Part shown: positions 242 through 31,821 of the stretch, piece by piece
Position numbering within the stretch: position 1 is the stretch's first letter
Layout of the letters: each line of letters opens with the position of its first letter
DNA from: Elusimicrobiota bacterium
GTDB taxonomy: Bacteria; CG03; SLGR01
Length of the DNA: 43,810 nucleotides
Direction: 5' to 3'
Assembly: GCA_003553445.1 (NCBI GenBank)
Contig: PWEK01000025.1
Location: forward strand, 1-43,810
Translations under genes and position numbers: made by a program
Notes under the pieces: model-generated
Seen by the model: the letters and a program-made list of their open reading frames with translations, nothing else
Told to the model about the DNA's origin: nothing
The model's database searches: none

Positions 242-297
242 TTCTATCGCCAAAAAAAGATGTGGCTCCCCGAGCTGGACGGCAGTGATTATAAAAC
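242..297 (+). repeat. tRNA-Asn-derived repeat, site A
   Basis: The core at 263-280 is TGGCTCCCCGAGCTGGAC. It differs by one base from the last 18 bases (CCA, discriminator, acceptor strand and part of the T stem) of tRNA-Asn at 14343-14360, read on the same strand. The left arm (CTATCG, then an A-rich run and GATG) resembles site B. The right arm, GGCAGTGAT, is shared with sites C and E and is not tRNA sequence. It is probably an integration (att) junction. Because it carries the element-type left arm, another module may continue to the left. Confidence 0.75.
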
Positions 298-490
298 TAA
301 TATTTTTATCTTTTTAATTTTCATAACCCATTTTATTAGTGCCCATCAGACTCATCTTCTTCAATATTCGTTGTTGCTTTGCATCAACTTTTTTTAAATA
401 ACTCCCTTTCCTGACTTCCGAAAATGACTGATCTAATAAAGCCATCTAACTAATAGGTTTTGAAAATATGGTGTTGCAAATTAACTTTTA

Positions 491-2047
491 TTAATCTTTT
501 CTGTAATTTAATATATCAAGACGTTTTGATACTTTTTCGATGTATTTTTCTTCAGGATATTTTTCTATTAGCTTAGAATAATATTCTTTGGCTTTTTCTT
601 TATTTTCCAGCTCAGTTTCATAAATTATACCAATTTTATACAAAAGCGATGCTCGACGCCTGTTCTCCTGATGAATCAAAAAATCTGAAATGCTTGTACC
701 ATCTTGAAAAGTTAATGATTTAAAGAAATCATCCCAACTTTCCATATCAATATTATAAACATCCAATGACTTTTTGTAGTTTTCAATCGCTTCCTCATAT
801 TGTTTTTCATCTTTTGCGGTATCCCCTGATTGCTCGTAATTATGTTTTTTTTGCTTTGCTTTGCGCAAGTTTGCTCCCCTAGTACCCTCTTTTGGGCGAG
901 AAGCAATAGCATAATTTGAAAGATCATCATCTTCAATTGCCTTCGAAAAGTAACGCGCTATCCATTCAATCAGTGGTCTAGTTTGCGGCAACGTAGATGG
1001 CCACCGCAAATCATATTCCCCCCTATGCAGGCCGTCTAGGTATTTGTAGCTGTACTTTCGGGCTTTATCCAATTTTCCAAGATAATAATATATTCTGGGG
1101 TAGTATTCATATCCAGAAAACTCCTCCGGCATTAACCGGATAAATTCAAGCTGTTTTTTAGCCATATTTCTAAAATATTCAGAGCTGTTTTCAGTAATTG
1201 AATGTTCACTCAACATCCTTTCATTGGATGTTAAAACCGTTCCCAGCTCAAGGAGGGATATTATGTCTTTTTCATCCGGATTCTGCATATTCATAACTTT
1301 TTCTACACTTGCAACGGCTCGCAAGAAATGCTTATTATAATAAATTGATATTTTTTCCGGCATAGAACCCTTGAACTCCCATATAATCGAGCCTTCACGG
1401 ATTTCATACCCTGAAGGCTCTTTTTTTATCCTTTCCAGCGGGGCATTTAAACCTGTTATGCTAATACGCGCTTTTTGAATATCTCCTTTCCATAACGGGC
1501 TGGCAGCCAGGGAATAACTTATTTCGCCATCTCCGATAGACCATATGGATTTACGGAATTTATATTTATTTCTTACGGTCCTAACCTGATCTTTTTCGAA
1601 TTCAACATTAAAGACATACATTTTTGGAACAGTCTGATTATACAATGGACCTCTCAGATAAGGATTTATTTCTGGATGGGACATGCCAAGTATTTCTTCC
1701 ACATCTATATTGCTTCCATCCACATAACAGGTGAAATCCTTTATAGGGTATTGAAATTCCTCAAGAGGGGGAGGAGGAAAATCTGCATAAGGTGCATCAG
1801 GAAAATCGGGAAATCCCATCTTAACATTAATCTTATCGCCCCTGTTGTGAAAAGTATATATACAGTCGGCTTGAAAATAGCCGTTAATATTTTTTATATC
1901 GACCCTTTTATCTACGAGAACAATATTTTCCGCACCATTCAACGGATAGACGATACAACCCTCTCCCCCGTAAATTAAATCGGCTGAAGAACGGCGCTGA
2001 AAAACTATTAGTAATAAAACCAGTATGCAGAAAACAGTTTTTTTCAT
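491..2047 (-). CDS. Secreted tetratricopeptide-containing protein
   Basis: This encodes 518 residues and I do not recognise a named family. The N-terminus (MKKTVFCILVLLLIVFQRRS, then SADL) is a signal peptide with cleavage likely near residue 22, so the product should be exported. Residues of about 25-240 are rich in beta-type segments with aromatic and proline-rich patches such as GFPDFPDAPYADFPPPP, suggesting a folded extracytoplasmic domain. From about residue 400 to the end there are helical repeats of TPR type: one around YEEAIENYKKSLDVYN and a last one around AKEYYSKLIEKYPEE. The TPR part suggests protein-protein contacts; no catalytic motif was seen. It is the only gene between repeat sites A and B, so it looks like the single cargo gene of that module. 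The ATG start has only a weak upstream AGGAT. Confidence 0.7.
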   Translation of the reverse strand: MKKTVFCILVLLLIVFQRRSSADLIYGGEGCIVYPLNGAENIVLVDKRVDIKNINGYFQADCIYTFHNRGDKINVKMGFPDFPDAPYADFPPPPLEEFQYPIKDFTCYVDGSNIDVEEILGMSHPEINPYLRGPLYNQTVPKMYVFNVEFEKDQVRTVRNKYKFRKSIWSIGDGEISYSLAASPLWKGDIQKARISITGLNAPLERIKKEPSGYEIREGSIIWEFKGSMPEKISIYYNKHFLRAVASVEKVMNMQNPDEKDIISLLELGTVLTSNERMLSEHSITENSSEYFRNMAKKQLEFIRLMPEEFSGYEYYPRIYYYLGKLDKARKYSYKYLDGLHRGEYDLRWPSTLPQTRPLIEWIARYFSKAIEDDDLSNYAIASRPKEGTRGANLRKAKQKKHNYEQSGDTAKDEKQYEEAIENYKKSLDVYNIDMESWDDFFKSLTFQDGTSISDFLIHQENRRRASLLYKIGIIYETELENKEKAKEYYSKLIEKYPEEKYIEKVSKRLDILNYRKD

Positions 2048-2290
2048 TTATTATGTTATCCTATAAAGTTACTTTTGCAATAGTAATATATATAAATTAA
2101 AGGGAATCAATTCGCTACTCATTTTATCGAAAGCGAGAATAACTTCCATTTTATCCTATTAATCCAATTCTTTTCCTTTTATATTAAATATATAACAAAA
2201 TTGGTAATTTATCAAAACAATGAAGCTGTTCCGAAGCTGTTTGGAAATAGAAATAAACATCTTAACCCCCTTCAAAAGTAAAAACCACCT

Positions 2291-2346
2291 ATTCTATCGT
2301 CGAAAAATGATGTGGCTCCCCGGGCTGGACGGTGTTAATAACAGTT
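2291..2346 (+). repeat. tRNA-Asn-derived repeat, site B
   Basis: The core at 2313-2330, TGGCTCCCCGGGCTGGAC, is identical over all 18 bases to the tRNA-Asn 3' end at 14343-14360. The left arm, CTATCGTCGAAAAATGATG, resembles site A. The right arm, GGTGTTAATAACAG, resembles site D (GGTGTCGATAACAG). The identity stops exactly where the tRNA T loop would begin, so this is a copy of the 3' end joined to element sequence and not a tRNA pseudogene of random length. Confidence 0.8.
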
Positions 2347-2588
2347 AAAAACCTAAATTGACTGTTAGGAATTTTTAAAAAGTGTTTTCTTCGGGCTCCC
2401 GAACCGGAAAAACGCTGCAGACAGCCGAGCAAAGCAAGGGAGTCAGTTATTTAATATCTTTCTTAATGATTATCGATAAAGTTGTAACTTTAAACCTCGG
2501 TATTGGCGTTAAATCAGTTTTCCATTCAATATTCCCGTTTCAAACCCAGCAAAAAAATATTCTCAAAGAACTCTTCAGAGAAAAAAAT

Positions 2589-3362
2589 TCATTCAGGCTT
2601 CCTAAAGGAGACTAGGTAAATCATTTCATTCCATAGAGTATGGGTAACTATATCTATCATTTCTTCAGGAATATGCTTAACAGGGGGATCATAGATATGA
2701 AAATCTGGCTTTTGATAAAAATAGGATATTATCTTTGGTTGCTTTTCTATTTGCTTAGCAGTTTCATCTCCTATGTAGATATTGGCCCCCGGTTTGGCTA
2801 CCCTAATCATCTCCTTTATAGCTTTAGTTTTATTATTGAAAAAGTTTATTCCTCCAATATGAAAAACCATGTCAAACACTTCGTCCTTAAAAGGTAACGT
2901 TTCAGCATTTCCCTGAACAAGACCAATATCAATGTCCCACTTTTTTGAATTGCGACGGCATTTTTTTAGCATTCTATACGAGATGTCTAACCCGTAATAA
3001 TCGACTTTTTTGCCTTTGTCATGCAAGTTCTTTATTTCCATTCCAGTTCCTATTGAAGTTTCTAGTACTAGAGCGCCGCTTTTGACTTCAATAATCTCAG
3101 CGATGCTTTTAAAAGCTTCTTTGCCTCCGAATAAAGAGCCAATGGTGCCAACCATAAAGTCATAAAAGTAAGCCAGCCAGTCATATCTTTTCTGGTACAA
3201 CTTATTTAAATCTTTAACTTCTTCTTCACGTAATAGCACAGGAATTCCATTCTTAACTGTGAACCGCTCTTCAGTTAGTGTATCAACTAGGAAGTCGTTT
3301 TCCCTTTTCAACTCGTTTCCACTGTAGGGGTTGATGAGCAATTCTAAAAATTCATATTTCAT
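2589..3362 (-). CDS. Class I SAM-dependent methyltransferase
   Basis: This 257-residue protein starts with a Trm112-like segment (residues 1-45; NPYSGNELKRE, then FTVKNGIPVLL) but lacks the zinc cysteines. A Rossmann methyltransferase fold follows. The SAM-binding motif I is LETSIGTGMEIKNL (about 95-108), with YGLDISYRML as motif II. VQGNAETLPFKDEVFDMVF (about 148-166) and the EMIRVAKPGANIYIGDE segment are typical of the Methyltransf_11/UbiE-type group. The substrate cannot be told from sequence; small molecules, quinones or lipids are all possible. AGGAG lies about 10 bases before the ATG. It is the sole gene of the module between sites B and C, reads leftward like most cargo, and shows no sign of decay. 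Confidence 0.85.
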   Translation of the reverse strand: MKYEFLELLINPYSGNELKRENDFLVDTLTEERFTVKNGIPVLLREEEVKDLNKLYQKRYDWLAYFYDFMVGTIGSLFGGKEAFKSIAEIIEVKSGALVLETSIGTGMEIKNLHDKGKKVDYYGLDISYRMLKKCRRNSKKWDIDIGLVQGNAETLPFKDEVFDMVFHIGGINFFNNKTKAIKEMIRVAKPGANIYIGDETAKQIEKQPKIISYFYQKPDFHIYDPPVKHIPEEMIDIVTHTLWNEMIYLVSFRKPE

Positions 3363-3457
3363 ATTTTCAAACTCCTATTTCCCATATTTATCAGCTACAT
3401 GCTCAATGATAACTCCATAAATAACAAGTGTTTCCTTTAGTTTCTGTGAAATCCTTT

Positions 3458-3507
3458 ATCACTTATGGGGTATTTTGTTCCCCAAGCTGGACGGCAGTGA
3501 TAACAGG
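3458..3507 (+). repeat. tRNA-Asn-derived repeat, site C (diverged)
   Basis: The core is TGTTCCCCAAGCTGGAC (3476-3492), a diverged copy of the 18-bp tRNA-Asn end with one base deleted. The right arm, GGCAGTGATAACAG, is identical to that of site E. The left arm ATCACTTATG (3458-3467) is not found at sites A, B, D or E. It does occur at 14325-14334, immediately next to the real tRNA 3' end and at the same distance from the core to within one base. This pairing of arms is what successive integrations would leave. Confidence 0.7.
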
Positions 3508-3538
3508 AATTTAATCTGATTAAAAGATTTTTTAAACA

Positions 3539-4465
3539 TCATTCTTCTTTCCAACCTTTCTTTTTTTGCCATTTCAGATTGAATGCTTTTTTCATTACAA
3601 TAGATTTTATGACCGGCATTATAAAATCTCTTAAGGTTATAACCGTATTTTCTAAACTTATCTCTGATTCTTTTATCCCAATTTTATTTAAAAATCCTTC
3701 CCACTGTTTATTTTTCTGTTTATCCATAATGAATTCTTCGCTTAACCCCACTGGAACAGTATCCGGAATTAAGGTTTTTCTTCTTTTGAAAGTTTTTTTT
3801 AATGCCTTCTGAAGTTTAGACCCATCTATTTTAAATGTACTAATCAAAAACTGAATATCATAATAATCCTTCATACGGCTGTTGATTATTCCCTTCTCAA
3901 AAATTATCTGGATTTTCTCTGCAAGGCTTGCCTCTACAGAATAGGCCAATAAGCAGGGAGCAGGAAAATCAAGCAATGTGGGATATTCAATCTTTTCCGG
4001 CTGCGTCATTATTGCGTCTCCAAACCCTATATTTATTTGAACCGGAATAACAGCTTGTCCCAGTTGTGTCTTGAATTTTATACGAATTCCCTGGTATTCA
4101 TTTTCTTCTCTTATATCTTCTGTTAATATCGTTTCTTCAATAAAATTCAATCCGTCATCATTCACTTTAACTCTACACAAATGTATTACTATCTTTTCTG
4201 CCTCTTTAATACTTATAATTTTTTTTGAAGAAAAATCTGCATCAAGGGTAGGTCTATGAGGCTCCCCGTGCCAATAACTATAAAGAGCTGCCCCCTTTAA
4301 AACCAATTTGTCTGAGTATTCCGATATACTAAGCCTATACAGAAACCGCTCCATTGCGTAACGAATTAACAAATTTGTAAAGATTTCGTTTCTATCCCTG
4401 GCAATATTAAGTAACCGCACCTTTACCGATGCCGGAATATTTTTATTACTCATAAACTGCTTCAA
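3539..4465 (-). CDS. AbiEii-type nucleotidyltransferase toxin
   Basis: This 308-residue protein belongs to the nucleotidyltransferase AbiEii/AbiGii toxin family, the toxin of type IV toxin-antitoxin and phage abortive-infection systems. The nucleotidyltransferase signature lies at about residues 56-82: LKGAALYSYWHG, followed by RPTLDADF, with the DxD pair binding metal and nucleotide. A later segment (SVEASLAEKIQIIFEKG, then RMKDYYDIQFLI) matches the conserved helices of the family. The first codons overlap the last 20 bases of the upstream antitoxin gene, so the two are translationally linked. The length fits the family and no key residue is missing. It reads leftward in the module between sites C and D. 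The cellular target is unknown from sequence; nucleotide transfer to tRNA is known for some relatives. Confidence 0.88.
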   Translation of the reverse strand: MKQFMSNKNIPASVKVRLLNIARDRNEIFTNLLIRYAMERFLYRLSISEYSDKLVLKGAALYSYWHGEPHRPTLDADFSSKKIISIKEAEKIVIHLCRVKVNDDGLNFIEETILTEDIREENEYQGIRIKFKTQLGQAVIPVQINIGFGDAIMTQPEKIEYPTLLDFPAPCLLAYSVEASLAEKIQIIFEKGIINSRMKDYYDIQFLISTFKIDGSKLQKALKKTFKRRKTLIPDTVPVGLSEEFIMDKQKNKQWEGFLNKIGIKESEISLENTVITLRDFIMPVIKSIVMKKAFNLKWQKKKGWKEE

Positions 4466-5045
4466 TATAAGGTCTTATCACATTCTGTACTTTATCAATT
4501 TTTGAATACTCCCAAAGCTTATCTACCGTACCCTTGTTCTGTTTTTTATACTCCTTTAGTGCCTCAATAGCTACATCCAGGCCAATTTTATTTCTAAACT
4601 TGAAGCAGTCAGCAACGGTTTTTTCCGGGCTATAAACATTAACTTTTATATTATCAATCAGATGCTCTTCACAACCTTTTTCCAGGGATCCCCCTGTCAT
4701 TCTTATGATTTTAAGCGGAATATTTATTTCAGGAGTCCAATCTTTATGATGTATTGCAATCCAAATCTGAAAAGGGTTTTGGGATGTCATCTCATGAAAT
4801 CTGAGCGCGCTAAGAAGGCAAATAACTGCATTGGGAACTTTTTTTGCTGTTTCAATCAGCATTATATCTTCCGAGATCTCTTTATCCGGAAGTTTATACA
4901 GGCCCCTACCTATTTTCTCAAGCCTTCCTTTTTTGCAAAGACGATAAATATACTGCCTGGGAATATTGTACTCTTCAACGTCTTTTGGCCTCAGTAAAGT
5001 TTTTTTTTCGGCCAGTTCTATAATTTTTTCTATTTTACTTTTCAT
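4446..5045 (-). CDS. AbiEi-type antitoxin / transcription regulator
   Basis: This is the antitoxin partner of the AbiEii gene that it overlaps. The product is 199 residues from the ATG at 5045. The N-terminal winged helix-turn-helix is seen in LLRPKDVEEYNIPRQYIYRL followed by GRLEKIGRGLYKLP. The C-terminal antitoxin domain follows (AVICLLSALRFHEMT, IWIAIHHK, then VYSPEKTVADCFKFRNKIG). A longer frame opens at 5090. I prefer 5045 because a perfect inverted repeat (5055-5082) and the start of transcription implied by the promoter fall between the two. AbiEi proteins are known to bind inverted repeats in their own promoter, which matches the layout here. Confidence 0.85.
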   Translation of the reverse strand: MKSKIEKIIELAEKKTLLRPKDVEEYNIPRQYIYRLCKKGRLEKIGRGLYKLPDKEISEDIMLIETAKKVPNAVICLLSALRFHEMTSQNPFQIWIAIHHKDWTPEINIPLKIIRMTGGSLEKGCEEHLIDNIKVNVYSPEKTVADCFKFRNKIGLDVAIEALKEYKKQNKGTVDKLWEYSKIDKVQNVIRPYIEAVYE

Positions 5046-5054
5046 GTTACTTAT

Positions 5055-5121
5055 CATAGGCATTTTTATATGTATGCCTATGTTTTGCAACTATACTAAT
5101 ATTTAATTTCATAAATGTCAA
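5055..5121 (-). promoter_or_regulatory. Promoter and operator of the AbiE operon
   Basis: On the minus strand, TTGACA (5121-5116) is followed after 17 bases by TAGTAT (5098-5093), a good sigma-70-type promoter. Just downstream, between promoter and start codon, lies a perfect 9-bp inverted repeat: CATAGGCAT at 5055-5063 and ATGCCTATG at 5074-5082. The repeat straddles the likely start of transcription and is the obvious candidate site for autorepression by the AbiEi protein. Confidence 0.6.
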
Positions 5122-5403
5122 CTGAAAAATGCCACAAACATGGGAACAGGAATGGACACAGTTATCCCTTTTAAAGGAAAATAATCCAATTTTATAAACC
5201 TAAAAAGGAATAAATACCTATTCTGTGTTCGAAAAAACAGAGATAAGGCTGCAATAAAAAGATAATTTATCAAAACTTATTGGAAATATGTTCACTGGAG
5301 TAGCTGTATTTCCGGAATTATGTTCACTCCATTGACTTTTTATCCAATCATTATTATTATTAATTTGAAATATCATTCAATTCAAAACAGCAGGAGGACA
5401 AAA
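5122..5403. other. Divergent intergenic region with IS-like direct repeats
   Basis: This separates the leftward AbiE operon from the rightward ATPase gene. At 5288-5329 the string TATGTTCACT occurs twice around TTCCGGAAT, resembling a decayed IS21-type terminus. Bases around 5212-5237 (ACCTATTC, then TTCGAAAAA) resemble the left arm of site B at about 2287-2308, without a core after them. This may be a half-site or chance similarity. AGGAGG for the ATPase is at 5392-5397. Confidence 0.35.
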
Positions 5404-6879
5404 ATGGCTATAACAAATAGACATCGTAGGGATAATCCCTGGTGGCAGTCAAAAAATAAAATTTTTGCAGATCCTCATTTAACTCGTATGAATAATCAAA
5501 TATTTAAATTTCATCATGGAATTCCTTTCAATCTCAATCAAGATATTATATATACATTGCGTGGACCACGGCAGGTTGGCAAAACCACGTATCTCAAAAT
5601 TCTTATAAAACATCTTTTATTTTCTGAAAAGTACGAACCGGAAAATATATTATATCTTGATATCCAGGGTGCCGGTTGCGCAAATTACGATACATTGAGA
5701 GAAATGGTAGAAGAATATATTAATTATATTCGGATCGCTTCAAATAATAAAAAACGTATTTACATCTTTCTCGACGAAGTAACCTCCATCAATGACTGGG
5801 GGGCCGCCTTACGGATTATGTATGAAAGAGGGTTATTGGAAAATACAACTATATTGGCAACCGGTCCCCACGCCCTGGATATTCAAAAAGGCGGGGAAAG
5901 CATGCCGGGGAGGAGGGGAAAAGAAAAAAACCTAGATTGGATTATGTCCCCTCTTTCTTTCGGGGATTATGTTAAAACCGCCAGTGCCCTTGCCGAGAAA
6001 AAACTTCCGGAACCTTTTTTACAATATTCTTTATTTGATGAAAAGATTTATAGCAAATCCCAAAAATTAGAAAATTATTCTGTTGTACTCTCAGAGTTTT
6101 TGGAAAAATACATTCTTACCGGAGGATTCCCTTACGCGATTGAAGCTGAATTACAGCAAGGCCATATTCCGAAATACATTTACAACCAACACAGAGACGC
6201 CATTTTACAGGAAATAAGAAGGTCGGGGCACCGGGAAACTTATTACAGGGAAATTGTAGACTGGCTTGCTAATAAGCATTTAGGAGATGAGTTTTCGTGG
6301 ACTTCAATAAGTAAAAACACTCATATCGGGAGTAAAAATACAGCAAGAAATTATCTGGAAGATGCAGAGCTGGCATATGTATGGCATATACTTTACAGGG
6401 TGATAAAACTGGGCAATTCTCAACCAGCACCAGGCAGTCCTAAAAAGATATATCCTATTGATCCCTTTACATGGCATACTCTTCATTGCTGGTCGGCAGG
6501 AATTCAAAATCCCTGGGAAGAAACAATAACGAGGGTTTCCAATCTCTCTTTTAAGGGTAAACTTATGGAGTCTGTTATAGCAGATCACCTTTACCGGAAA
6601 TTCGGAAGCTTTACTTATTTTTATAGAGACAAAAAAGGCAGGGAGAAAATTGATTTTGTCTTGCATAAAAATAAGACCGACTACCGTTTGCTGGAGATGA
6701 AATACCGTGAAACCATAAATTCTAAAGATAAAAAACTTTTGTTAAAATACGGCGGGGGCATCTTATGCACCAAAAAAGAATTAGATATCATCAAAGGAGA
6801 AAATGTAATTATGATTCCTGCTTATAATTTGCTTGCCGGAACAACTCAAAATTTAACTCTTTTTCCAAAACCTTTATAA
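5404..6879 (+). CDS. AAA ATPase of the DUF4143 family
   Basis: This is a 491-residue ATPase of the AAA_14/DUF4143 type, common in bacterial and archaeal accessory regions; its function is poorly known. Walker A is LRGPRQVGKTTYLK (near residues 50-63) and Walker B is RIYIFLDEVTSINDW. The middle part carries the DUF4143 region (ILTGGFPYAIEAEL, then the winged-helix-like SKNTHIGSKNTARNYLEDAE). The C-terminus has a PD-(D/E)XK nuclease-like core: KIDFVLHKNKTDYRLLEMKYRE supplies D, E and K in the expected spacing. The ATG at 5404 follows AGGAGG by six bases, so I reject the longer frame from 5320. It is the only rightward gene of this module, lies tail to tail with the next repeat, and looks intact. 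Confidence 0.82.
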   Translation: MAITNRHRRDNPWWQSKNKIFADPHLTRMNNQIFKFHHGIPFNLNQDIIYTLRGPRQVGKTTYLKILIKHLLFSEKYEPENILYLDIQGAGCANYDTLREMVEEYINYIRIASNNKKRIYIFLDEVTSINDWGAALRIMYERGLLENTTILATGPHALDIQKGGESMPGRRGKEKNLDWIMSPLSFGDYVKTASALAEKKLPEPFLQYSLFDEKIYSKSQKLENYSVVLSEFLEKYILTGGFPYAIEAELQQGHIPKYIYNQHRDAILQEIRRSGHRETYYREIVDWLANKHLGDEFSWTSISKNTHIGSKNTARNYLEDAELAYVWHILYRVIKLGNSQPAPGSPKKIYPIDPFTWHTLHCWSAGIQNPWEETITRVSNLSFKGKLMESVIADHLYRKFGSFTYFYRDKKGREKIDFVLHKNKTDYRLLEMKYRETINSKDKKLLLKYGGGILCTKKELDIIKGENVIMIPAYNLLAGTTQNLTLFPKPL

Positions 6880-7191
6880 AACCCTAAAACCAATTTAATT
6901 ACCTTGATACATTATCCGATTTAAACGTACATAGTTAAGGTATTTAATGTGTTTCAGAAGATCGATATCTCAAAAACAATGTGGCTCCCCGAGCTGGACG
7001 GTGTCGATAACAGGGTTTTTAGGTAAATATCAAAAAATACAGAAAATATTTTATTTCATCGGACGTCATAATTATTATTTGCTATTGTCTAATATGATTT
7101 TCGCAATTTCCCAGTTAAATTTGCCGCAATCTTCCGGTTGTATACTATAGATGAAAAAACATAAAAAAAGGCAATAATTATTCTTCACATC
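6880..7191. other. Intergenic region carrying repeat site D
   Basis: No gene is seen. The stretch holds repeat site D (core 6982-6999). The open frame at 6947-7150 crosses the repeat, has no recognisable domain and is most likely accidental. No clear terminator hairpin was found after the ATPase gene. Confidence 0.5.
6961..7013 (+). repeat. tRNA-Asn-derived repeat, site D
   Basis: The core at 6982-6999, TGGCTCCCCGAGCTGGAC, is the same as at sites A and E and one base from tRNA-Asn. The left arm CAAAAACAATG matches site E (GAAAACAATG). The right arm GGTGTCGATAACAG matches site B. The mixing of left and right arm types between sites fits recombination at the shared core. Confidence 0.78.
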
Positions 7192-8016
7192 CTAATATAT
7201 ATTATCATCCCCTGAATAGGATGACCCCTTTAATTTTGAAATAAACGCAGCGTGGATTACCTTGAAAGCCTCTTCTATATCATAATCCACATCTTTTGCC
7301 AGCAGAGGCTTAATATCTTCCTTAAAATCCTTGTCTTTATATTTACCGGATAAATTTTTCTCAAACCGTGCTTTTGTAATTGGGATATCCAGTTTTTCCG
7401 TATATATTTTAAAATAATTAACTACTTTTTCCTCTTCAACTAAACCATCTTTCACGCTCTTCCATAAATCAAAAAGATCCCGCCCCTTATTCCTCTGAAA
7501 TAAGGCTCTTAGTTTTGTAGCAAGCAATTCATTAATAGTATAAGTGGGGATATTAACATTACCTGAAAACCACGGATTTACAACTGTATATTTCTTGAAT
7601 ACTTTATCTGCTACAATAAAATCTTCCAGATAATTTATCTCCAGTTTAACTTTGTTTTCAACTGGTGGAGGAAACTCGCATTTGTAATAAAAAGTCATTG
7701 TTGCCATTGACTCGCCTCTGCCTGTATCTGTTTTTTCAAATAATTTATCGAATTTTTCCCTGAGAGAATCATAAACCGGGCCTATCGGGCCTTTTTTAAT
7801 CATTACAAAATCCAGGTCTTCGGAATACCGGACAGGGCTTTTCATATATAGTTTATTAAGAGCCGTCCCTCCCCTGAAAAGTAGAGTTTTCTTTAAAATA
7901 TTATCCGAAAATATTTCTGCCAGCACCCTGGAAAGAATAAGGTCCTGTTCAACCTGGGAATAATCCTGCCAGGGAGCAAATTTTTGCCAGCCGATTATAA
8001 AATTCTCCGGAATCAT
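7192..8016 (-). CDS. AbiEii-type nucleotidyltransferase toxin (second system)
   Basis: This 274-residue protein is a second AbiEii/AbiGii-family nucleotidyltransferase, of a different subgroup from the one at 3539-4465. The signature is LLFRGGTALNKLYM followed by RYSEDLDFVM (near residues 46-73), with the Gly-Gly and DxD motifs complete. The C-terminal segment TINELLATKLRALFQRNKGR, then DLFDLWK, is the conserved helical part of the family. It starts at the base next to the stop codon of its upstream partner, giving zero spacing and clear translational coupling. The two AbiE toxins share little beyond these motifs, so this is not a recent duplication. It is the first gene inside the module to the right of site D. 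Confidence 0.88.
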   Translation of the reverse strand: MIPENFIIGWQKFAPWQDYSQVEQDLILSRVLAEIFSDNILKKTLLFRGGTALNKLYMKSPVRYSEDLDFVMIKKGPIGPVYDSLREKFDKLFEKTDTGRGESMATMTFYYKCEFPPPVENKVKLEINYLEDFIVADKVFKKYTVVNPWFSGNVNIPTYTINELLATKLRALFQRNKGRDLFDLWKSVKDGLVEEEKVVNYFKIYTEKLDIPITKARFEKNLSGKYKDKDFKEDIKPLLAKDVDYDIEEAFKVIHAAFISKLKGSSYSGDDNIY

Positions 8017-8817
8017 TTATAGAAGAGTTACATCGGCTTCAATTTCTCTGTTTTCCAGCACATGCCATTTCTTATTATGGTTGGCTTTTTTTCTGGAATT
8101 TCCCGCTGAGAGAGGAATTCTGCTGAGATTGTTTTCCTTAACCCATTTTGCCAGATTTCCTGTAAGCTTCGAGAAACCGAATTTATCCAGCAAATAGCCC
8201 AATCTTTGCACAGTTGCCTTATCATGCATTTGAATAGATGCCGTAAAAAGTCTCTCCTCGCTGATTTTGCCGGAGGATGCCAGTTCAATTAAAACATTGG
8301 CTGCATTATCCAATCCGCCGGCATATTCTTTGTAAAATACAATATCTACAGCAGTTGCCTCAATTGTTGACATCCGGATATATCCTGCGGGTGTCTTTTT
8401 TTCTTCTGTTAATACTTTTTTTATTTTACCGGACTTTATAAATTTAATAGCTGCTCTTCCTTTTTCAATATCTCTTATTGATGAGTTAACTATAACCTGA
8501 AATACCTGGGGAGCTTGATGCGAAGCGCCGTGAAATGCAGCCGCGGAAAGTATTCCCACATAATAAGTTCTTTTAAGATATTTCATTAACTGATCTATGA
8601 AGTATGCGGGAGGAGGTCCGCCGGCATGGATATCTTCGGGTTTTATTATAACGAAAAAGCCCTGGGCGGGCTGAATAAGTCTGCCTTTTCTCTGCAATCT
8701 CGATATGCTTTTATGAAAAGCTGAAGTTGAAAGACCACTCCTTTCCAGGGCATCCCGCTTTGTAAAGGTTATTTTTCCCTCACTTCGATATACATTTATT
8801 AACTCGTTTAATCTCAC
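8017..8817 (-). CDS. AbiEi-type antitoxin (second system)
   Basis: This 266-residue partner of the adjacent AbiEii toxin begins with a winged helix-turn-helix: ITFTKRDALERSGLSTSAFH, then LQRKGRLIQPAQGFFVII. The AbiEi antitoxin core follows (YYVGILSAAAFHGASHQ, VIVNSSIRDI, then MSTIEATAVDIVFYKEYAGG). It is longer than the first antitoxin (199 residues) and has an extra C-terminal region of about 60 residues with basic character (NSRKKANHNKK). The start is GTG at 8817, very close to the predicted promoter, so the leader would be short. If transcription starts a little further upstream, GTG remains the best start, because the helix-turn-helix begins only about 15 residues in. Confidence 0.83.
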   Translation of the reverse strand: MRLNELINVYRSEGKITFTKRDALERSGLSTSAFHKSISRLQRKGRLIQPAQGFFVIIKPEDIHAGGPPPAYFIDQLMKYLKRTYYVGILSAAAFHGASHQAPQVFQVIVNSSIRDIEKGRAAIKFIKSGKIKKVLTEEKKTPAGYIRMSTIEATAVDIVFYKEYAGGLDNAANVLIELASSGKISEERLFTASIQMHDKATVQRLGYLLDKFGFSKLTGNLAKWVKENNLSRIPLSAGNSRKKANHNKKWHVLENREIEADVTLL

Positions 8818-8824
8818 TGCACTG

Positions 8825-8859
8825 TGTTATTAATAACATATTTTTCCATATATTGTCAA
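8825..8859 (-). promoter_or_regulatory. Promoter and palindromic operator of second AbiE operon
   Basis: On the minus strand TTGACA (8859-8854) is followed by an AT-rich stretch, with a possible -10 TATTAA at 18-base spacing (8835-8830). A perfect 14-bp palindrome, TGTTATTAATAACA (8825-8838), covers the -10 region and would block polymerase if bound. This is a likely site for self-regulation by the AbiEi protein. The palindrome differs from that of the first AbiE operon, as expected for two unrelated antitoxins. Confidence 0.45.
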
Positions 8860-8910
8860 GACTTGCATTTACCAACACACAAAGATAGGGGGGGGTAATA
8901 GAATATTCAG

Positions 8911-8955
8911 CGATAGATGTTTTGAATGGACCCCAAGTGGGAGGACGGTGTTTAA
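8911..8955 (+). repeat. Decayed tRNA-Asn-derived repeat, site F
   Basis: CGATAGATGTTTTGAA, then TGGACCCCAAGTGGGAGGAC, then GGTGTTTAAT lines up with site E. The left arm CGATAGATG is identical to that at 12059-12067, the core is recognisable with several changes, and the right arm GGTGTT matches site B. It is too degraded to be certain. If real, it splits the 5.1-kb module into a 1.9-kb AbiE module and a 3.2-kb SEC-C/Fic/recombinase module. Confidence 0.45.
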
Positions 8956-9297
8956 TTTTTGTTTTAAATGTTCGGTTTTTGATGTGTACCATATGGTGAC
9001 AGAAATTATAGGAAATTCTCATTACGATACCAATTAGTGGCAATTATTTCAATATATTCCCATTCAATATATTGCCGTCAGTTGTCAAAAAACCAAATAT
9101 TTCCCTATATTTTTATTGTTTGGTGTAACTTTGATTGCAAAAAATCACGACGATTATAGAATTATCTTGACTTTTGGAAAATTATGCGCACACTATTTAT
9201 GAATAAATAGAAGCATAGTAAGCGGATAAATAGCAGTTTAGAGTTTGGATAAACAGCATGAGCAGGGTTTTTCAAAATATGTGGTATTGGCTTATAT

Positions 9298-10272
9298 TCA
9301 ATTATTCCCGCAACAATATTTATATTTCTTCCCGCTTCCGCAGGAACAGGGATCATTTCTACCTACTATTTTATCTTTCGTCTGTTTTTTTAACCATTCA
9401 ATTGCTCCAGGGACTTTCTTCCAGGCTTCCAAAAAAACAGCGCCATAACACATGGCTTCGCTCTCTCCACCTAATGTAATTCTGTCCGGAAGTTTTTCGC
9501 TCGGTATTTTTTTCCCAACAAGGTAATCCGGCACATGTGCATTATATTTTCTTGCCACCAAAAGCAATTTGTTTGTTTCTTCACAGGAGCCATTTTTAAC
9601 ATATGCCAATAACGCTTCCGAGTATATCCAGTCAGCAGCGCAGTCATTTTTGTATTTTTCCATATTGAAAAGTTTTTCCAGATCATCCCATCTCTGATCC
9701 TCCGCGTAGCAGGCTGCAAGAATATATCTTATGCCCTGATTATCACCAGGATTAAGTTCCAGCATATCTCTGTAATTTTCAATAGCTTCCTCATGTCTTC
9801 CAAGCTTCCATAAAGCATGCGCATGTCCCCTGCGAGCGCGCATATAAGGCCTTGATTTTGTGAAACCCCAGAAATGCCCCTTATATTCCTCGAAATTTTT
9901 CTTGCCCAAGGCTCTTTCTCCAGCTTTAATTCCCTTCATATAATAATCTTTTGTTTCCTCCCAGGATGTTGCCGCGTCCTCTGCTAGAATCACATAGGCA
10001 TCAGCGCAGTCTTTTGATATTTCAAGGGCCTCGTGGGCCGCCTCCACCCGGTCAGCAGGATATACAAAATCCCAAGCCTCATAAATTATATCCTGAGCGC
10101 GCCTTAACGGAGTTTGATTTACAACTGGAGGCATTTCGGACTTGCCGGTAAATTGATTTAAATACTCCCTGACTTCTTCAACAGATTCAAATTCCTTATC
10201 TTCAAGAAGCTTTGAAATATTGCTTGTAATCTTTTCGGTAGATTTAATTCCTTTTTTCTTTTTCTTGCCCAT
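9298..10272 (-). CDS. TPR protein with C-terminal SEC-C metal-binding motif
   Basis: This 324-residue soluble protein has a lysine-rich first 12 residues. Residues of about 60-270 are mostly helical and include a recognisable TPR (GRHEEAIENYRDMLELNPGD) preceded by ACADAYVILAEDAA-like repeats. The last 22 residues form a SEC-C zinc motif, RNDPCSCGSGKKYKYCCG, with Cys309, Cys311, Cys320 and Cys321. SEC-C motifs occur at the end of SecA and in many unrelated proteins, so this does not imply secretion. GGAGG precedes the ATG and overlaps the last codons of the upstream RhuM-Fic gene, whose stop codon abuts this start. The two were therefore one transcript and probably one functional unit. The function is unknown; toxin control or a partner role in defence is inference from context. 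Confidence 0.78.
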   Translation of the reverse strand: MGKKKKKGIKSTEKITSNISKLLEDKEFESVEEVREYLNQFTGKSEMPPVVNQTPLRRAQDIIYEAWDFVYPADRVEAAHEALEISKDCADAYVILAEDAATSWEETKDYYMKGIKAGERALGKKNFEEYKGHFWGFTKSRPYMRARRGHAHALWKLGRHEEAIENYRDMLELNPGDNQGIRYILAACYAEDQRWDDLEKLFNMEKYKNDCAADWIYSEALLAYVKNGSCEETNKLLLVARKYNAHVPDYLVGKKIPSEKLPDRITLGGESEAMCYGAVFLEAWKKVPGAIEWLKKQTKDKIVGRNDPCSCGSGKKYKYCCGNN

Positions 10273-11286
10273 TTATTTACCTCCTTTCCGAACTCCGTTT
10301 TCAACATTTTCCGATACTGTTTCACTCATATCTATTAAATTAGTTATCACAGATTCAATTATTTCTTTCTCCGACGGACCGCTTTCGGCAATCATAAGGG
10401 TCAATGCGCACAGGGTATTCTCTTCAATGCGTTTCCTTGCTTCATTAATATACAAAAGATTGTTTTTGTCCAGGTAACTTAAAAAAACAGTAGATGCTAT
10501 TCTCTTATTTCCATCAACAAAAGCATGATTTTTAGTTATCGTATAAAGCAGGTGGGAAGCTTTTGATTCAACACTGGGATATAGTTCCTGACCACCGAAG
10601 GTTTGATATGTATTTTCAATTGCCGACTCAAAAGACCTGTCTTTCACTTTACCAAATAGCTTCTCTCCGGAAAATTTTTTCTATAATTGATTAACAACTG
10701 CATTTGCATCTTTTAAACTGAATTTATAGTTCTCTTTTATGGCCTCTTTTTTTTCAACTTTTCCGTTGTCATAATTATCGAATAAAACCAGGGCGTTGTA
10801 ATAATCTGATATAATTTTAAGTAATCCCTTTGTTTCCAGTAAATCAGTCTCTTTTTCCAGCTTATTAACTATATTAAAAAGCTCCTTCAGTTTTTCTTGC
10901 CTCTCCTGCAGTCTGCTAATATTAAGTGTATAGCCCCGGACAATATAATCCCTTAATTTTGACGTGGCCCATTTTCGAAAGTCTGTGCCTCTTTGAGACT
11001 TAATACGGTAACCGACCGAGATAATAACGTCTAGGTTATAATGATTAATCTCTCTTTCGACATCCCGGCCTCCTTCGTTTTGAACTATCCGGAATTTCCG
11101 GATAGTTGGATATTTTTCTAACTCTCCCTCACTGTATACATTCTTTATATGCTCGTTTACTGTTCTCACGTCTTTTTCAAACAAAACGGACATTTGCTTC
11201 TGGGTAAGCCAGACTGTTTCTTTATCCAGTTTAACATCTATCTCTGTTTTTCCGTCAGCGGTTTTATAAATCTCTATGTTGCTCAT
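10273..11286 (-). pseudogene. RhuM-Fic/DOC family gene split by an in-frame TAG
   Basis: Reading leftward from 11286, the first 201 codons encode a RhuM-family N-terminus (MSNIEIYKTADGKTEIDV, TVWLTQKQMSVLF, YNLDVIISVGYRIKS, RGTDFRKWATSKLRDYI). A TAG at 10683-10681 stops it. The same frame stays open beyond (KKFSGEKLFGKVKDRSFESA) and continues into a Fic/DOC domain with FVDGNKRIA, ending at 10273. Joined, the 337 codons match the usual length of RhuM-Fic proteins, so one nonsense codon is the only lesion. The C-terminal part could restart at a GTG at 10647. The Fic motif has Ala in place of the usual Pro (HAFVDGNKR), which many family members tolerate. Fic domains transfer AMP or similar groups to proteins. 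It is followed directly by the SEC-C gene. Confidence 0.82.
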
Positions 11287-11469
11287 TTTTTATTTTACTT
11301 AATTTTTATCATAAATACCCTCAATATAATAACCCTTACTTATTTCTGGCTATATTATTTTTTTTTATTATAACACTTTTCCAAATCGATTAAAATGGCG
11401 ATGGCTGTAACCTCGCAACTCCAATAACGAAACTATAGCGTAAATTGTAACTAAAGGAGAACCCCTCTT

Positions 11470-12007
11470 ATGAAAAAATGCGGAATATACCTCAGGGTAT
11501 CCACAGAAGGACAGGCAGACGTAAAAGAAGGCTCGCTTAAATCCCAAATAAGCAGGCTGAAATCGTTAATTAAATCAAAAAACAATATGCGGGAAAAATG
11601 GAAACTGGTTCAAGTATATTCTGAAAAAGGCCGTTCTGGAAAAGACCTTAACAGGCCGCAGATTCAACTATTGATTGAAGATATCTTAAAACATAAAATC
11701 AACCTGGGCCCGAGGCAACGGCGGTGAATATTACTATTACTCCTGCATCTGCCGGAACAATTATATCCGGGCGGATTTAATAGAAAAGCAGATTATATCC
11801 CTGGTTCGAAAATATGCCGTTAACACCTGCGTTAATATTAATGACCTCAAAATTAAAATCACCGGAGGATCGTTCGGAAAAGCGAAACTTGCTGAGTTGT
11901 CACGTAGATTATCTGCGGCAAAAACTCCATTCCGGAGAAATATTTTAAAAAGAATAATAAAAAAGATTTATTGCAAAGATAGAAGCATAGAGATTGAATT
12001 GCAATGA
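11470..12007 (+). pseudogene. Serine recombinase, internally deleted and frameshifted
   Basis: From the ATG at 11470 (AAGGAGA nine bases upstream) the first 75 or so codons are a serine resolvase/invertase N-terminus. They carry GIYLRVSTEGQ with the nucleophile Ser, KSQISRLKSLI, and VYSEKGRSGKDLNRPQIQLL. The frame then closes at 11727 after an unrelated tail. From about 11722 to the TGA at 12005-12007 a second frame encodes what looks like the C-terminus of a large serine recombinase: YYYYSCICRNNYIRADLIEK (zinc beta-ribbon end), a helical segment, and a final RRNILKRIIKKIYCKDRSIE. The middle (catalytic helix E and DNA-binding parts) is missing. The gene is dead, but it is the only site-specific recombinase in the island and stops about 50 bases from repeat site E. 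Confidence 0.75.
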
Positions 12008-12056
12008 AAATCTGCGTGTTTTTACTGAAAGTTCGAAGGAATTTCAGGTGCCTTCT

Positions 12057-12114
12057 CGACGATAGATGGTTCGAAAACAATGTGGCTCCCCGAGCTGGAC
12101 GGCAGTGATAACAG
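12057..12114 (+). repeat. tRNA-Asn-derived repeat, site E
   Basis: The core at 12083-12100 is TGGCTCCCCGAGCTGGAC, with left arm CGATAGATGGTTCGAAAACA and right arm GGCAGTGATAACAG. It has the best-preserved arms of the set and can serve as the reference: sites A, C and E share the right arm, and sites D and E share the A-rich left arm. It lies just after the broken recombinase gene. Confidence 0.8.
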
Positions 12115-12144
12115 ATTTTACATAATATTGGAATTGACTTTTGT

Positions 12145-12372
12145 TTACCCGTTATGGGCTAAACATCTACACTTTTTTAAAACTTTTTCTATTGATATTG
12201 CAAATGTTTTTTGCTTAACAAAAGATTCAGATGGCAATCCCAGGGATAGCATTCCCACAACTTCACCATTAATACTATCCACAAAAGGGCCACCGGACAT
12301 TCCTTTCTGGCTTTTAAAAGATAATTTAAATCTCTCGACTTCCTGCTTTTTTATATTTTCCGCATTTACCTA
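12145..12372 (-). pseudogene. C-terminal fragment of a trypsin-like serine protease
   Basis: On the minus strand, 75 open codons end at a TAA at 12147-12145. The translation contains KGMSGGPFVDSINGEVVGML, the catalytic-serine box of trypsin-like (S1-type) peptidases (GxSGGP followed by a G-x-V-V-G strand), then a family-like end (FAISIEKVLKK). There is no N-terminus: the histidine and aspartate of the triad are absent, and an in-frame TAG lies at 12372-12370. The fragment is cut off where an IS21 remnant begins on the other strand, so insertion of that element probably destroyed the gene. Confidence 0.65.
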
Positions 12373-12404
12373 AAAGCTATAATAAATTCCATAGCGAACG
12401 CCGG

Positions 12405-12689
12405 AGAAATTTCCAGAGTTTAAAAACAAGCGTTTTGGATGAACCGGGATTTAAAAAATTACCCAATTACAGCGCTGATGATTTTTTTGAAATAATATCT
12501 AAGCGTTATGAAAAAAATTCTGTGATAATAACTGCGAATAAAACTTTTGAACAATGGTCGGATATTTTTAATGACAGCATTCTTGCCAATGCCATAATTG
12601 ACAGAGTTGTACACTATTCAACTGTCATTAAGATAAAGGGACCAAGCTACAGAAAAAAGAATCTGAAAAAGGGAGGTGATGGACAGTAA
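12405..12689 (+). mobile_element. istB: Truncated IstB (IS21 helper ATPase) remnant
   Basis: The frame that includes 12435-12689 encodes the C-terminal third of IstB, the AAA+ helper of IS21-family transposition. It contains SVLDEPGFKKL (Walker B region), FFEIISKRYEKNSVIITANK, FEQWSDIFND, ANAIIDRVVHYS and IKIKGPSYRKKN, all in family order. The N-terminal region with Walker A is gone, and no istA is present nearby. No intact terminal repeats were recognised at its edges. It is a relic and should not be called as a gene. Confidence 0.8.
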
Positions 12690-12931
12690 AAAAATTTGGG
12701 TTGAACTATGGAAAAAAGTTTGGCATTACCTATGGAATTTTATTTGACTTTGAGACACTTATTAAAGAGTCACCTGGGTATTATAAGAAAGCTTTAATAT
12801 TGTAAATGCCATATGGATTAAACCACATAATTATCCCTTATCTGCTTGTAGCCCTGATCGGTTTGCCAAATTACCTGGCCAAACAATGCAATTTATAAAT
12901 CAGTTATGGGCTCTTTTTCTTATAACATCTT

Positions 12932-13396
12932 TCAGTTAAACCAGTACCTGATACCTATTCCTCCGTTTAACTCCGCATCTGTATCTGGCAGCAGCAGCAT
13001 TACCGGAACAATTTCAATAAAAATATCCAGTGGCGCTTCTGAGAGAATAAAATTTATACCCACAGGAATCCTGACCCCTGTTTCCGGATCATCGCTGATC
13101 GTTACCCTTCCGCCCATGCCATAATAGAATAAGGTGTTGCCGGCATCTTCAATATCCTCAGTTGCGGTATCGATACCACTATGCCAGAGATAGTCCAGGT
13201 GAAGATGGAACGATTCAATACCGATAAATGACCAGGCCACTCCGGCGGCCAGGGCATTTTTTTCGGTTGTCCATCTTTTAAAACTGAGCCCCGTAGGTTG
13301 CCCAAGTATTATCCCTAGGCCGGTTTTATCAGCCTGAAGTTCTGCACCGGGAGCTAAAACTAAAATCCCAAAAATAACAATCAATAATTTTTTCAT
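12932..13396 (-). CDS. Small outer-membrane beta-barrel protein
   Basis: This 154-residue protein has a clear signal peptide (MKKLLIVIFGILVLAPGA, cleavage probably after ELQA near residue 22). The mature part is made of alternating short amphipathic strands such as GLGIILGQPTGLSFKRW, NALAAGVAWSF and HLHLDYLWH. It ends in GGIGIRYWFN, a glycine-rich last strand close to the aromatic C-terminal signature of outer-membrane proteins. It resembles DUF3996-type small barrels, but I cannot name the family. GGAGG lies upstream of the ATG. Its presence supports a diderm envelope, provided that the gene is at home here. It sits in the module next to tRNA-Asn and appears intact. Confidence 0.72.
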   Translation of the reverse strand: MKKLLIVIFGILVLAPGAELQADKTGLGIILGQPTGLSFKRWTTEKNALAAGVAWSFIGIESFHLHLDYLWHSGIDTATEDIEDAGNTLFYYGMGGRVTISDDPETGVRIPVGINFILSEAPLDIFIEIVPVMLLLPDTDAELNGGIGIRYWFN

Positions 13397-13538
13397 TTTT
13401 TATATTTCCTCCTTTCTTTTCTTCCATCTTAAAATGTATACAATATAAGAAGGGCTCAAACAATTGCCTATTTCTACTCTTTACTGACCTTTAATGCGGC
13501 TTGTATAATTTTGCACTAAAAGATATAATTAAAAAAAT

Positions 13539-14198
13539 ATGACTAAAAATTACAAAGTATTAAGAAAGGAAAGTTTAACATGGAAAGGCCGCTCCATTTT
13601 GATAGAAATCAGAATGAAACCAAAATTTCCATATGGTACTGATTTTTATGTTTTTATGGATAACGAAATTATTTCTCACACAAGTAATACTGAAGCTATA
13701 GAAATGATATGGGAAGATGTTAAAGGAAGAAGATCAATCCCAGAAGATGAAACATATAAATTACACAAAGAATTAGAAAAATTAAAAACAAATGACTACT
13801 TTACTCATGAGGGAGCGCGAATTCCCATAAAAGTTGAATTACACTTCCAAGAAATTATAATCCCGAAAAATTTCTCCGAACTACTTGAAAAAATGAGGAA
13901 TATACTATCTACTGTACAGAATAAAAAAAACTTTTGCCCGTCTTTTTATGATTCAGGATATTCTTATTTTACCGTTACAATAAATGGTGAAAAACATATT
14001 ATTGGTAAAAAAGAAGCAGAAAGAAAAAGCAGTTGTGCTGTATTAGTCGGTGGTTTATTTTTTTTTACAATGGGAATTTTTATCTTTCAAAAAGGAATAC
14101 GAGAGGGAGAGTTTTTAGCTCCATCCATTTTTTCACTTATCTTTGGTTTACTATGTATTTTGGGAAGTAATATTAAATTTAGAAAACCTAAAAAATAG
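13539..14198 (+). CDS. Hypothetical membrane protein with two C-terminal helices
   Basis: This encodes 219 residues and the family is not recognised. Residues 1-165 are soluble and mixed in charge, with repeated beta-type segments (SILIEIRMKPKF, DFYVFMDNEII, IPIKVELHFQEIIIP, YFTVTINGEKHIIG). Two hydrophobic helices follow, SCAVLVGGLFFFTMGIFIF and FLAPSIFSLIFGLLCILG, with a short loop between, then a basic tail (KFRKPKK) that should stay in the cytoplasm. With no signal peptide, the N-terminal domain probably faces the cytoplasm. No good ribosome binding site is visible, and base composition is more AT-rich than in the core genes, in keeping with imported DNA. Confidence 0.6.
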   Translation: MTKNYKVLRKESLTWKGRSILIEIRMKPKFPYGTDFYVFMDNEIISHTSNTEAIEMIWEDVKGRRSIPEDETYKLHKELEKLKTNDYFTHEGARIPIKVELHFQEIIIPKNFSELLEKMRNILSTVQNKKNFCPSFYDSGYSYFTVTINGEKHIIGKKEAERKSSCAVLVGGLFFFTMGIFIFQKGIREGEFLAPSIFSLIFGLLCILGSNIKFRKPKK

Positions 14199-14342
14199 AA
14201 TCGGTAAAAGCAGCAACTTTCCTTATGCAATCTATAACGGCAACTATTTTTACCGCATTATAACTCTTTTCAAAATTAGTGTGAACACGATAGTAACGTA
14301 TTCAATTAAAATAATACAAAATTGATCACTTATGTGTTAAAC

Positions 14343-14418
14343 TGGCTCCCCGGGCTGGACTCGAACCAGCAACTTAGCGGTTAACAGCCGCTCACTCTGC
14401 CAATTGAGTTACCGGGGA
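14343..14418 (-). tRNA. tRNA-Asn (GTT)
   Basis: This is a 76-base cloverleaf with encoded CCA. The acceptor strand TCCCCGG pairs with CCGGGGA; the anticodon loop is CTGTTAA with anticodon GTT; the T arm is GCTGG TTCGAGT CCAGC. It lies eight bases after the porB stop codon and may be co-transcribed with the por operon. Its 3' end is the source of the repeated core found five or six times in the island to its left, so it is the probable integration target. Confidence 0.95.
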
Positions 14419-26853: not shown

Positions 26854-26870
26854 TTTCTGTCCCTTTCTTT

Positions 26871-29240
<2,370 letters not shown>

Positions 29241-29525
29241 TTAAATATCTCCTCCCAGCCTGAAACTGATATCTTTAACTTTTTTTTCACCTTCAATTTT
29301 ATCATTTATAGTCCTTATAAGCATATCTTTTTTATATGAAAGTTCCTGCAGATAGACGCTGTTTTTTACATTAAGATAAAGCCTTCCGTTCTTAAAAGTT
29401 ATAACTTCCGCTTTCCGGCTTTCTTTTCCTGTTTTCTCCCATGCCCGTGATATATCATCTTTCACAGGCTTAAACCTGGAAATAATACCATCAAGCATTG
29501 TGTCGGCCTTTTTCCACCTGTTCAT
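29241..29525 (-). CDS. DUF721 (DciA-like) protein
   Basis: This 94-residue DUF721 protein has the family pattern: an N-terminal helix (MLDGIISRFKPVKDDISRAW), then a KH-like core (VITFKNGRLYLNVKNSVYLQ, ELSYKKDMLIRTIND). Proteins of this family include DciA, the ancestral loader of the DnaB helicase in bacteria that lack DnaC/DnaI. The place between recF and gyrB is the usual one for dciA. The start overlaps the recF stop by four bases (ATGA). I infer the helicase-loading role from family and place. Confidence 0.8.
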   Translation of the reverse strand: MNRWKKADTMLDGIISRFKPVKDDISRAWEKTGKESRKAEVITFKNGRLYLNVKNSVYLQELSYKKDMLIRTINDKIEGEKKVKDISFRLGGDI

Positions 29526-30532
29526 AACCTGATAACCTCAATACTTTCCCCAACCTCGTGGGGCATATCTGTAGAGGTTAAAATGGTTTGTGATTCCCCT
29601 ATTTTCCTGCCTATCCTCTTCCTGTTGGTTTCGTCCAACTCGCTAAAAACGTCATCCATAAGAAAAATCGGGTTTTTTTCTCTTTTTTCTCTGATTAAAC
29701 TCCAAACCGCAAGCCTGTAAACAACAGCAGCCATTCTTAGCTCACCTCTTGACCCCATCAGGCTCAGGCTTTCGCCGTTTTTACAAAAAGAAAATCTATC
29801 TCTGTGAGGACCCCAGGTTGTATATCCCCTTTCCCTGTCTTTCTTTACGCTTTCGTCACCTTTATAATTAGACGGGTCGTACTCAAGCAAATATATATTT
29901 TCTCCAATCCGTGATGATTCATAATGCATTACTTTATTCAGTTTTTCTGTAAAAACTTTCCTGTTTTCCAAAATTAAACTGCCATATTTTTTTAAAAGAT
30001 CTGTCCAGGCGCTAATTTCTGTTACGGCAGCTTCCGCTTTCAGGGATGCATTTCTTTCTTTCAAGGCCTTTCTGTATCGAATTAGGGAGTTTATGTACCC
30101 TGTGTTAACCTGTGATATATTTATATTAACCATGCGCCTTATACCCGAAGGAGGCCCTTTAATAGTTTCAATGTCATCAGGGGAAAACATAATAACAGGG
30201 AATTTTTCCAGAACCTGTTTTGACGAAGCGCGGGAGGAGTTAATCTCTTCCGATATGCCTCCTCCATATTTATAAATCATTTTTATGTTAAATTTCCCTA
30301 AGCTATCCACCGCTTCGGCAATTACTGCACAATTTTTCTCGCCCTTCATCACTATTTCACTGCATTTTGCGGTTCTATGCGAAGTGGTAGTGGAGGCAAA
30401 AAAAATAGATTCAAGTAAATTTGTCTTCCCGGTGCCGTTCTCTCCGACAACCAAATTTGCCTTTTTGTCAAACTCAAAATTTTTATTTTTATGATTCCTG
30501 AAATTAACTAATTTAATTTTTTCCAAATACAA
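29522..30532 (-). CDS. recF: DNA replication and repair protein RecF
   Basis: This 336-residue SMC-like ATPase acts with RecO and RecR in gap repair and restart of stalled forks. It has the N-terminal strand pair (IKLVNFRNHKNKNFEF), Walker A GENGTGKTN, the RecF signature VIMFSPDDIETIKGPPSGIR, the ABC signature-like MGSRGELRMAAVVYRLAVW, and Walker B PIFLMDDVFSELDETNRKRI. It lies one base after dnaN and overlaps dciA, in the standard dnaA-dnaN-recF order. Length is a little short of the usual 350-370. Confidence 0.96.
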   Translation of the reverse strand: MYLEKIKLVNFRNHKNKNFEFDKKANLVVGENGTGKTNLLESIFFASTTTSHRTAKCSEIVMKGEKNCAVIAEAVDSLGKFNIKMIYKYGGGISEEINSSRASSKQVLEKFPVIMFSPDDIETIKGPPSGIRRMVNINISQVNTGYINSLIRYRKALKERNASLKAEAAVTEISAWTDLLKKYGSLILENRKVFTEKLNKVMHYESSRIGENIYLLEYDPSNYKGDESVKKDRERGYTTWGPHRDRFSFCKNGESLSLMGSRGELRMAAVVYRLAVWSLIREKREKNPIFLMDDVFSELDETNRKRIGRKIGESQTILTSTDMPHEVGESIEVIRL

Positions 30533-30533
30533 A

Positions 30534-31646: not shown

Positions 31647-31698
31647 GGTATCCTCCTTTTTTTAACAACGACTATAATAATGAATATATCAAATTATT

Positions 31699-31736: not shown

Positions 31737-31821
31737 CTTTAAAAATTAGTCATAAAACCTCCATTTAAAAATCTGTTAAAAACAATTAAATTTAATTAAC
31801 AAGTCAAACATAAGTATAAAA

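Follow-up and report, generated by a model that had tools for sequence, protein, structure and literature searches.

What are the small gene modules lined up at the 3′ end of a tRNA-Asn gene in an Elusimicrobiota bacterium, and which enzyme could have put them there? The locus lies on contig C103 (PWEK01000025.1) of the assembly GCA_003553445.1, here called G000. The window analysed is this complete contig of 43,810 nucleotides, so the array may extend further left. Our results make it very probable that the locus is an accretion array, in which integrative elements specific for tRNA-Asn were stacked by a large serine recombinase (LSR) of the CcrB/DsiB type.

Junctions at the tRNA-Asn end

The repeated core, TGGCTCCCCGGGCTGGAC on the + strand, is the 3′-terminal 18 bp of the tRNA-Asn gene. 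The gene itself is 100% identical over 79 bp to the tRNA-Asn of G004, a related genome from the same order and another family. The initial annotation of the window had reported that this 18-mer recurs at five sites in one orientation, and all five copies were found again. When up to three mismatches are allowed, the window holds five matches, the tRNA itself counted, and 100 dinucleotide-preserving shuffles hold none. The anatomy of the junctions can be seen directly:

263..294, + strand: junction A, core with one mismatch, right arm GGCAGTGATTATAA
2313..2344, + strand: junction B, core the same as in the tRNA (no mismatches), right arm GGTGTTAATAACAG
3475..3506, + strand: junction C, degraded core with four mismatches, right arm GGCAGTGATAACAG, start of an AbiE cassette
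5203..5236, + strand: core-less remnant resembling a left arm, 79% like the left arm of B
6982..7013, + strand: junction D, core with one mismatch, right arm GGTGTCGATAACAG
12083..12114, + strand: junction E, core with one mismatch, right arm GGCAGTGATAACAG
14343..14418, − strand: tRNA-Asn(GTT), the anchor, whose 3′ 18 bp are the core

The right arm, with the consensus GG(CAGTG/TGTNN)ATAACAG, is strongly conserved and the A-rich left arm less so: in 13 copies taken from three genomes, the information content is 1.14 bits per column for the 14 bp right of the core and 0.49 for the 14 bp left of it, while the flank null has a mean of 0.20 and a maximum of 0.32. The site list of the initial annotation stood for B, A, D and E, whereas C turned out to be much degraded, with a left arm that differs from those of the other sites. 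Core-to-core spacings of 2050, 1162, 3507, 5101 and 2260 bp bear out the module sizes given there. The 3.5-kb and 5.1-kb modules are nevertheless composites and not single units, since comparison with a relative places the end of the AbiE cassette near 5221. The remnant at 5203-5236 is a probable decayed junction, marking the right end of this cassette.

Three more core copies are found on other contigs of G000 (C109:6722, C58:169 and C51:301). These, the one on C109 and the variants on C58 and C51, may belong to the remainder of the array or have been inserted separately. Around its single core copy, contig C109 (L019; 12.5 kb) is crowded with AbiE-like genes and also encodes a helicase and a Fic protein; a recombinase fragment lies at 10602-10685.

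Core-bounded cassettes in related species

The initial annotation had suggested looking for the core in relatives, and it is present in two of them, G004 and G007 (same family, other genus). Comparison of cassettes, which is between species throughout, directly shows units bounded by the core. To the right of C, the AbiE cassette matches G004 from the core at L029:3196 over 1744 bp at 92.7% identity; the homology stops 12 bp short of the next core, and the DNA to the left is unrelated in the two species. For E, the sequence on its right, part of a peptidase-gene cassette, aligns with G007 from L031:13608 (317 bp, 89%), where another neighbour stands on the left. On its left, E is homologous to the DNA left of the intact tRNA-Asn in G004 (408 bp, 93.4%), and this homology stops at the core, thus one and the same arm is met both against the tRNA and against another element. 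Within G004, a HEPN-MNT cassette lies between cores twice (L028 287-1513 and L029 1845-3196; 1143 bp, 91%). Module boundaries carry direct repeats of the 3′ end of the target gene, and modules are present in one species and absent from another with precise ends. The proposal that left arm-core-right arm junctions arose as one element after the other entered at the tRNA end therefore held, as cassette homology starts and stops at the core; module gain or loss bounded by the core, which the annotation had named as a check, was likewise seen between species.

Cassettes are 90–93% identical across families, while the adjoining korAB genes are 69% identical in DNA. At the protein level the values for G000 and G004 are 91–93% for the cassette and 71–72% for KorA and KorB beside the array. 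This difference shows that core-bounded units move horizontally between species. A clean gain of a single cassette, HEPN-MNT-Fic in L028 as compared to HEPN-MNT-AbiE-Fic in L029, was considered and is suggestive at most, since the Fic genes are just 77% alike.

Among 84,980 species of GTDB, the core pattern was found in two records alone, both metagenome-assembled genomes of the CSSed soda-lake series, and a search of the viral contigs of IMG/VR gave zero matches. No arrays were found at tRNA-Gln in the order or at tRNA-Asn in family f6, just single copies or isolated matches.

Several further observations concern the junctions. In L029, two cassettes with different genes are nearly identical over some 100 bp on the left side of the core (3097-3232 and 4859-4993), a probable ribosome-binding site included, as if they had a promoter or leader end in common. 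L028 holds a tRNA-like remnant at 9034-9068 whose start resembles the core and whose left arm (GTCAAAACCATG) is like that of the array. The same locus has a second class of attachment-site (att)-like repeat at 3615-3701 and 5232-5318, flanking another HEPN-MNT cassette and consisting of TGGCTCCCC followed by a T-rich stretch and TTCGAACC. Contigs of four other species of the order (L054, L055, L056 and L057) stop 0–18 bp past the 3′ end of tRNA-Asn, and the last bases of a G005 contig, CAATG, agree with the left arm of the array. Such contig ends are weak evidence for a variable junction because other tRNAs in those genomes are also near contig ends.

Serine recombinases and the proposed building of the array

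No intact integrase had been noted in the array, which is true of the window. A broken one is nevertheless present beside junction E:

11470..12004, + strand: remnant of a large serine recombinase, heading toward junction E
12005..12082, + strand: left arm of the serine-recombinase element; in G004 the same arm abuts the intact tRNA-Asn

The remnant consists of an N-terminal resolvase part (11470-11727) and a C-terminal part in another frame (11693-12004), the middle being deleted. In G004 a recombinase gene stops 76 bp away from the tRNA-Asn 3′ end, and the C-terminal part of the remnant shares 87.5% identity with it. Elsewhere in G004 (L028:1461-3065) a recombinase of 534 aa is intact, its domains being Resolvase, Recombinase and Zn-ribbon; it overlaps a core, running through the copy at 1513. 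It is only distantly related to the recombinase at the G004 tRNA-Asn and represents a second subfamily, which has one copy at a core of the Asn type and closely related members at tRNA-Gln. Upstream of it there is just a gene for a 100-aa DUF6788-like protein. The 3′ end of this recombinase gene is duplicated nearby in inverted orientation, and the same is seen in L110 and L119.

The position of the recombinases was surveyed in the 16 genomes of the phylum. Ten loci have a tRNA beyond the C-terminus of the recombinase, and in every one the recombinase gene faces the tRNA 3′ end tail-on; its stop codon lies anywhere from 266 bp inside to 89 bp outside that end, and the antisense strand of the tRNA encodes several of the C-termini. 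The target tRNAs are tRNA-Asn, -Gln and -Ser. In the tree, the recombinase at the G004 tRNA-Asn clusters with two recombinases that another family has at tRNA-Asn (support 99/96). The best NCBIfam matches are CcrB and XisF, both far under their cut-offs (CcrB 100 bits against 900), and the A118 serine integrase is among the matches to solved structures. Relatives from viral, phage and plasmid records are only 25–30% identical, so no transfer vehicle was found; these records and IMG/VR gave no relaxase, phage or plasmid link either. Taken together, the sequences point to an LSR as the likely enzyme behind the array.

We infer the following course of events. Each element would consist of left arm, core and right arm, the core being a copy of the tRNA-Asn 3′ end. 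A CcrB/DsiB-type LSR would join the site of the element with the 3′ end of tRNA-Asn, whereby the incoming core would restore the tRNA, a left arm-core would be left against it and the earlier element would be pushed outward. The next element would enter at the same end, and by such stacking each internal core would become an element-element junction. Elements that bear a recombinase carry its gene at the left arm, pointing to the core. Many modules are without a recombinase; these, with 1.2–2 kb, one operon and often a toxin-antitoxin pair, are probably cis-mobilizable cassettes, plausibly moved in trans by a recombinase encoded elsewhere. Two junctions of G004 (4d and 4e; L029:3196 and L029:4957) have the left arm and the first ten core positions in common, the diagnostic base at position 5 included, and differ from position 11; the crossover would therefore probably lie between core positions 5 and 11.

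By the usual view tRNA 3′ ends are the territory of tyrosine integrases. The modules might be tyrosine-integrase islands, either tycheposons or classical tRNA islands, with the integrase lost or acting in trans and the serine recombinases being cargo beside the junctions. An 18-bp repeat of the tRNA 3′ end that ends in the T-loop is the usual anatomy of such islands (Islander; PMC4383910). Further, a tyrosine recombinase of 193 aa, consisting of the catalytic domain only (L020 2138-2719), is encoded 2 kb from the variant core on C58, and a decayed copy, about 75% identical, lies on C49 (L060; 30679-30944). However, the decayed copy has no core nearby and no tyrosine integrase adjoins any junction on C103, L028, L029, L030 or L031, whereas serine recombinases of two subfamilies stand at the junction and are found phylum-wide at tRNA ends in one fixed orientation. 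We regard this explanation as unlikely. Still less probable is that the repeats are fossils of an old inert array, with cassette sharing due to homologous recombination at the flanking repeats or to mis-binned contigs. Broken genes are indeed many (recombinase, RhuM-Fic, IstB), site C is degraded and the bins are imperfect, G000 having 5.6% contamination. Yet the core bounds cassettes in separate pairs at near single-base resolution, the tRNA contigs of G000 and G004 each carry their own diverged korAB, and activity in relatives is compatible with decay of single modules.

The annotation had also called the array integron-like. Short repeated sites do separate small one-operon cassettes, mostly in one orientation, as would be expected of cassettes with attC-type sites. 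On either strand of four junctions, however, no fold beyond that of shuffles was found (z from −0.67 to 1.15), the repeated site comes from a tRNA, and no complete integron integrase was detected: the C58 protein, the sole IntI candidate examined, scores 105 bits against a cut-off of 265. With no attC-type fold and no linked integron-type tyrosine integrase, integron membership was ruled out and we give this explanation hardly any weight, the least of the three.

Several points weigh against an accretion array built by an LSR. Every genome is a metagenome assembly and most junction contigs are short; both core-bearing relatives come from sediment of one soda-lake series. The array in the window has no intact recombinase, and the dyad symmetry around the core is weak, though it is expected of serine-recombinase sites. 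The tyrosine recombinase near the variant core on C58 must also be counted here.

A broader idea is that the system might be a serine-recombinase counterpart of the integron: minimal cassettes of one operon with an att site and toxin-antitoxin or defence-like genes would be caught at the tRNA-Asn end by recombinases acting in trans, of at least two unrelated subfamilies, and would be exchanged among families of one sediment community. We offer this only tentatively, as it is more doubtful than not.

Known systems and genes of the array

The closest known parallel is found in the ssrA islands of Dehalococcoides with the recombinase DsiB (McMurdie et al. 2011, PMC3146451). These are also tandem islands with repeats of about 20 bp of the 3′ end of an RNA gene, where insertion in the T-loop was inferred; a CcrB-like serine recombinase of about 540 aa lies beside and overlaps the att site, and islands without an integrase were proposed to be cis-mobilizable (PMC3146451). 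In our case, too, an LSR with the three domains typical of this type, intact in L028, abuts or overlaps the att site and points to the end of the target gene. The differences are that the target is tRNA-Asn and not tmRNA, that modules go down to 1.2 kb and carry toxin-antitoxin-type genes instead of a six-gene integration module and reductive dehalogenases, and that exchange crosses families. At the L028 recombinase neither a smaller CcrA/DsiA-like partner nor a six-gene integration module was found; the array thus works like a DsiB island and is not classed as one.

SCC/ECC elements with CcrAB are the experimentally studied analogue. They share with the array the LSRs, the 3′ end of a conserved gene as target and variable cargo, and complex SCC elements have extra att sites (PMC6222049). 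They differ in targeting rlmH, in the size of ECC (21–78 kb) and in paired ccrA and ccrB (PMC6222049), and strict SCC membership was rejected on the target and on the low CcrB score. Accretion arrays of cis-mobilizable elements (CIME) and integrative and conjugative elements (ICE) likewise stack att-keeping, integrase-less elements at one gene end, but those at tRNA ends use tyrosine integrases and derive from ICE or integrative and mobilizable elements (PMC5704250). Unlike in such arrays, no relaxase or conjugation gene was identified here. The likeness to tycheposons, proposed in the initial annotation, holds as an analogy in the tRNA anchor, the cargo and the regenerated tRNA 3′ end. Tycheposons use a tyrosine recombinase and have cyanobacterial and other hosts. 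The array instead has a CcrB-related LSR linked to its junctions, and membership was rejected since no tyrosine recombinase is adjacent to it, the nearest candidate being on the separate contig C58. With integrons it shares small exchangeable cassettes in arrays, without attC folding and IntI.

New relative to these systems are tRNA-Asn as the target, cassettes of very small size and exchange that crosses families. Across the whole small phylum serine recombinases stand tail-on to several tRNAs, and very small cassettes are stacked at tRNA-Asn once. The array would widen the range of serine-recombinase attachment sites known for genome engineering. It would also offer a natural system for studying the mobilisation of cassettes that lack an integrase, and the spread of toxin-antitoxin and defence genes among uncultivated bacteria.

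The remaining genes of the array are as follows:

491..2047, − strand: TPR protein gene, module A-B
2589..3362, − strand: S-adenosylmethionine (SAM) methyltransferase gene, module B-C
3539..5090, − strand: AbiEii/AbiEi type IV toxin-antitoxin cassette, also between cores in G004 (L029:3201-4944)
5320..6879, + strand: AAA/DUF4143 ATPase gene
7192..8817, − strand: second AbiEii/AbiEi pair
9298..10272, − strand: TPR/SEC-C protein gene
10273..11286, − strand: RhuM-Fic gene, split by a premature stop; in L029 the homologue comes after a core
12115..14342, no strand: tRNA-proximal module

The tRNA-proximal module contains a peptidase-gene remnant common to G007, an IstB fragment, a protein of 219 aa with no known function and an outer-membrane-like protein in common with G004 (90% at the nucleotide level). 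The premature stop in RhuM-Fic occurs in both species (window 10273-11286; L029 5027-5629) at different positions, thus the gene was broken independently in each. Further along the window, at 24406-41763, genes named from their translations include gyrA, gyrB, recF, dnaN, dnaA, rnpA, yidC, mnmE, rsmG, parA and parB, so that no more than about 20 kb separate the array from the chromosome origin region.

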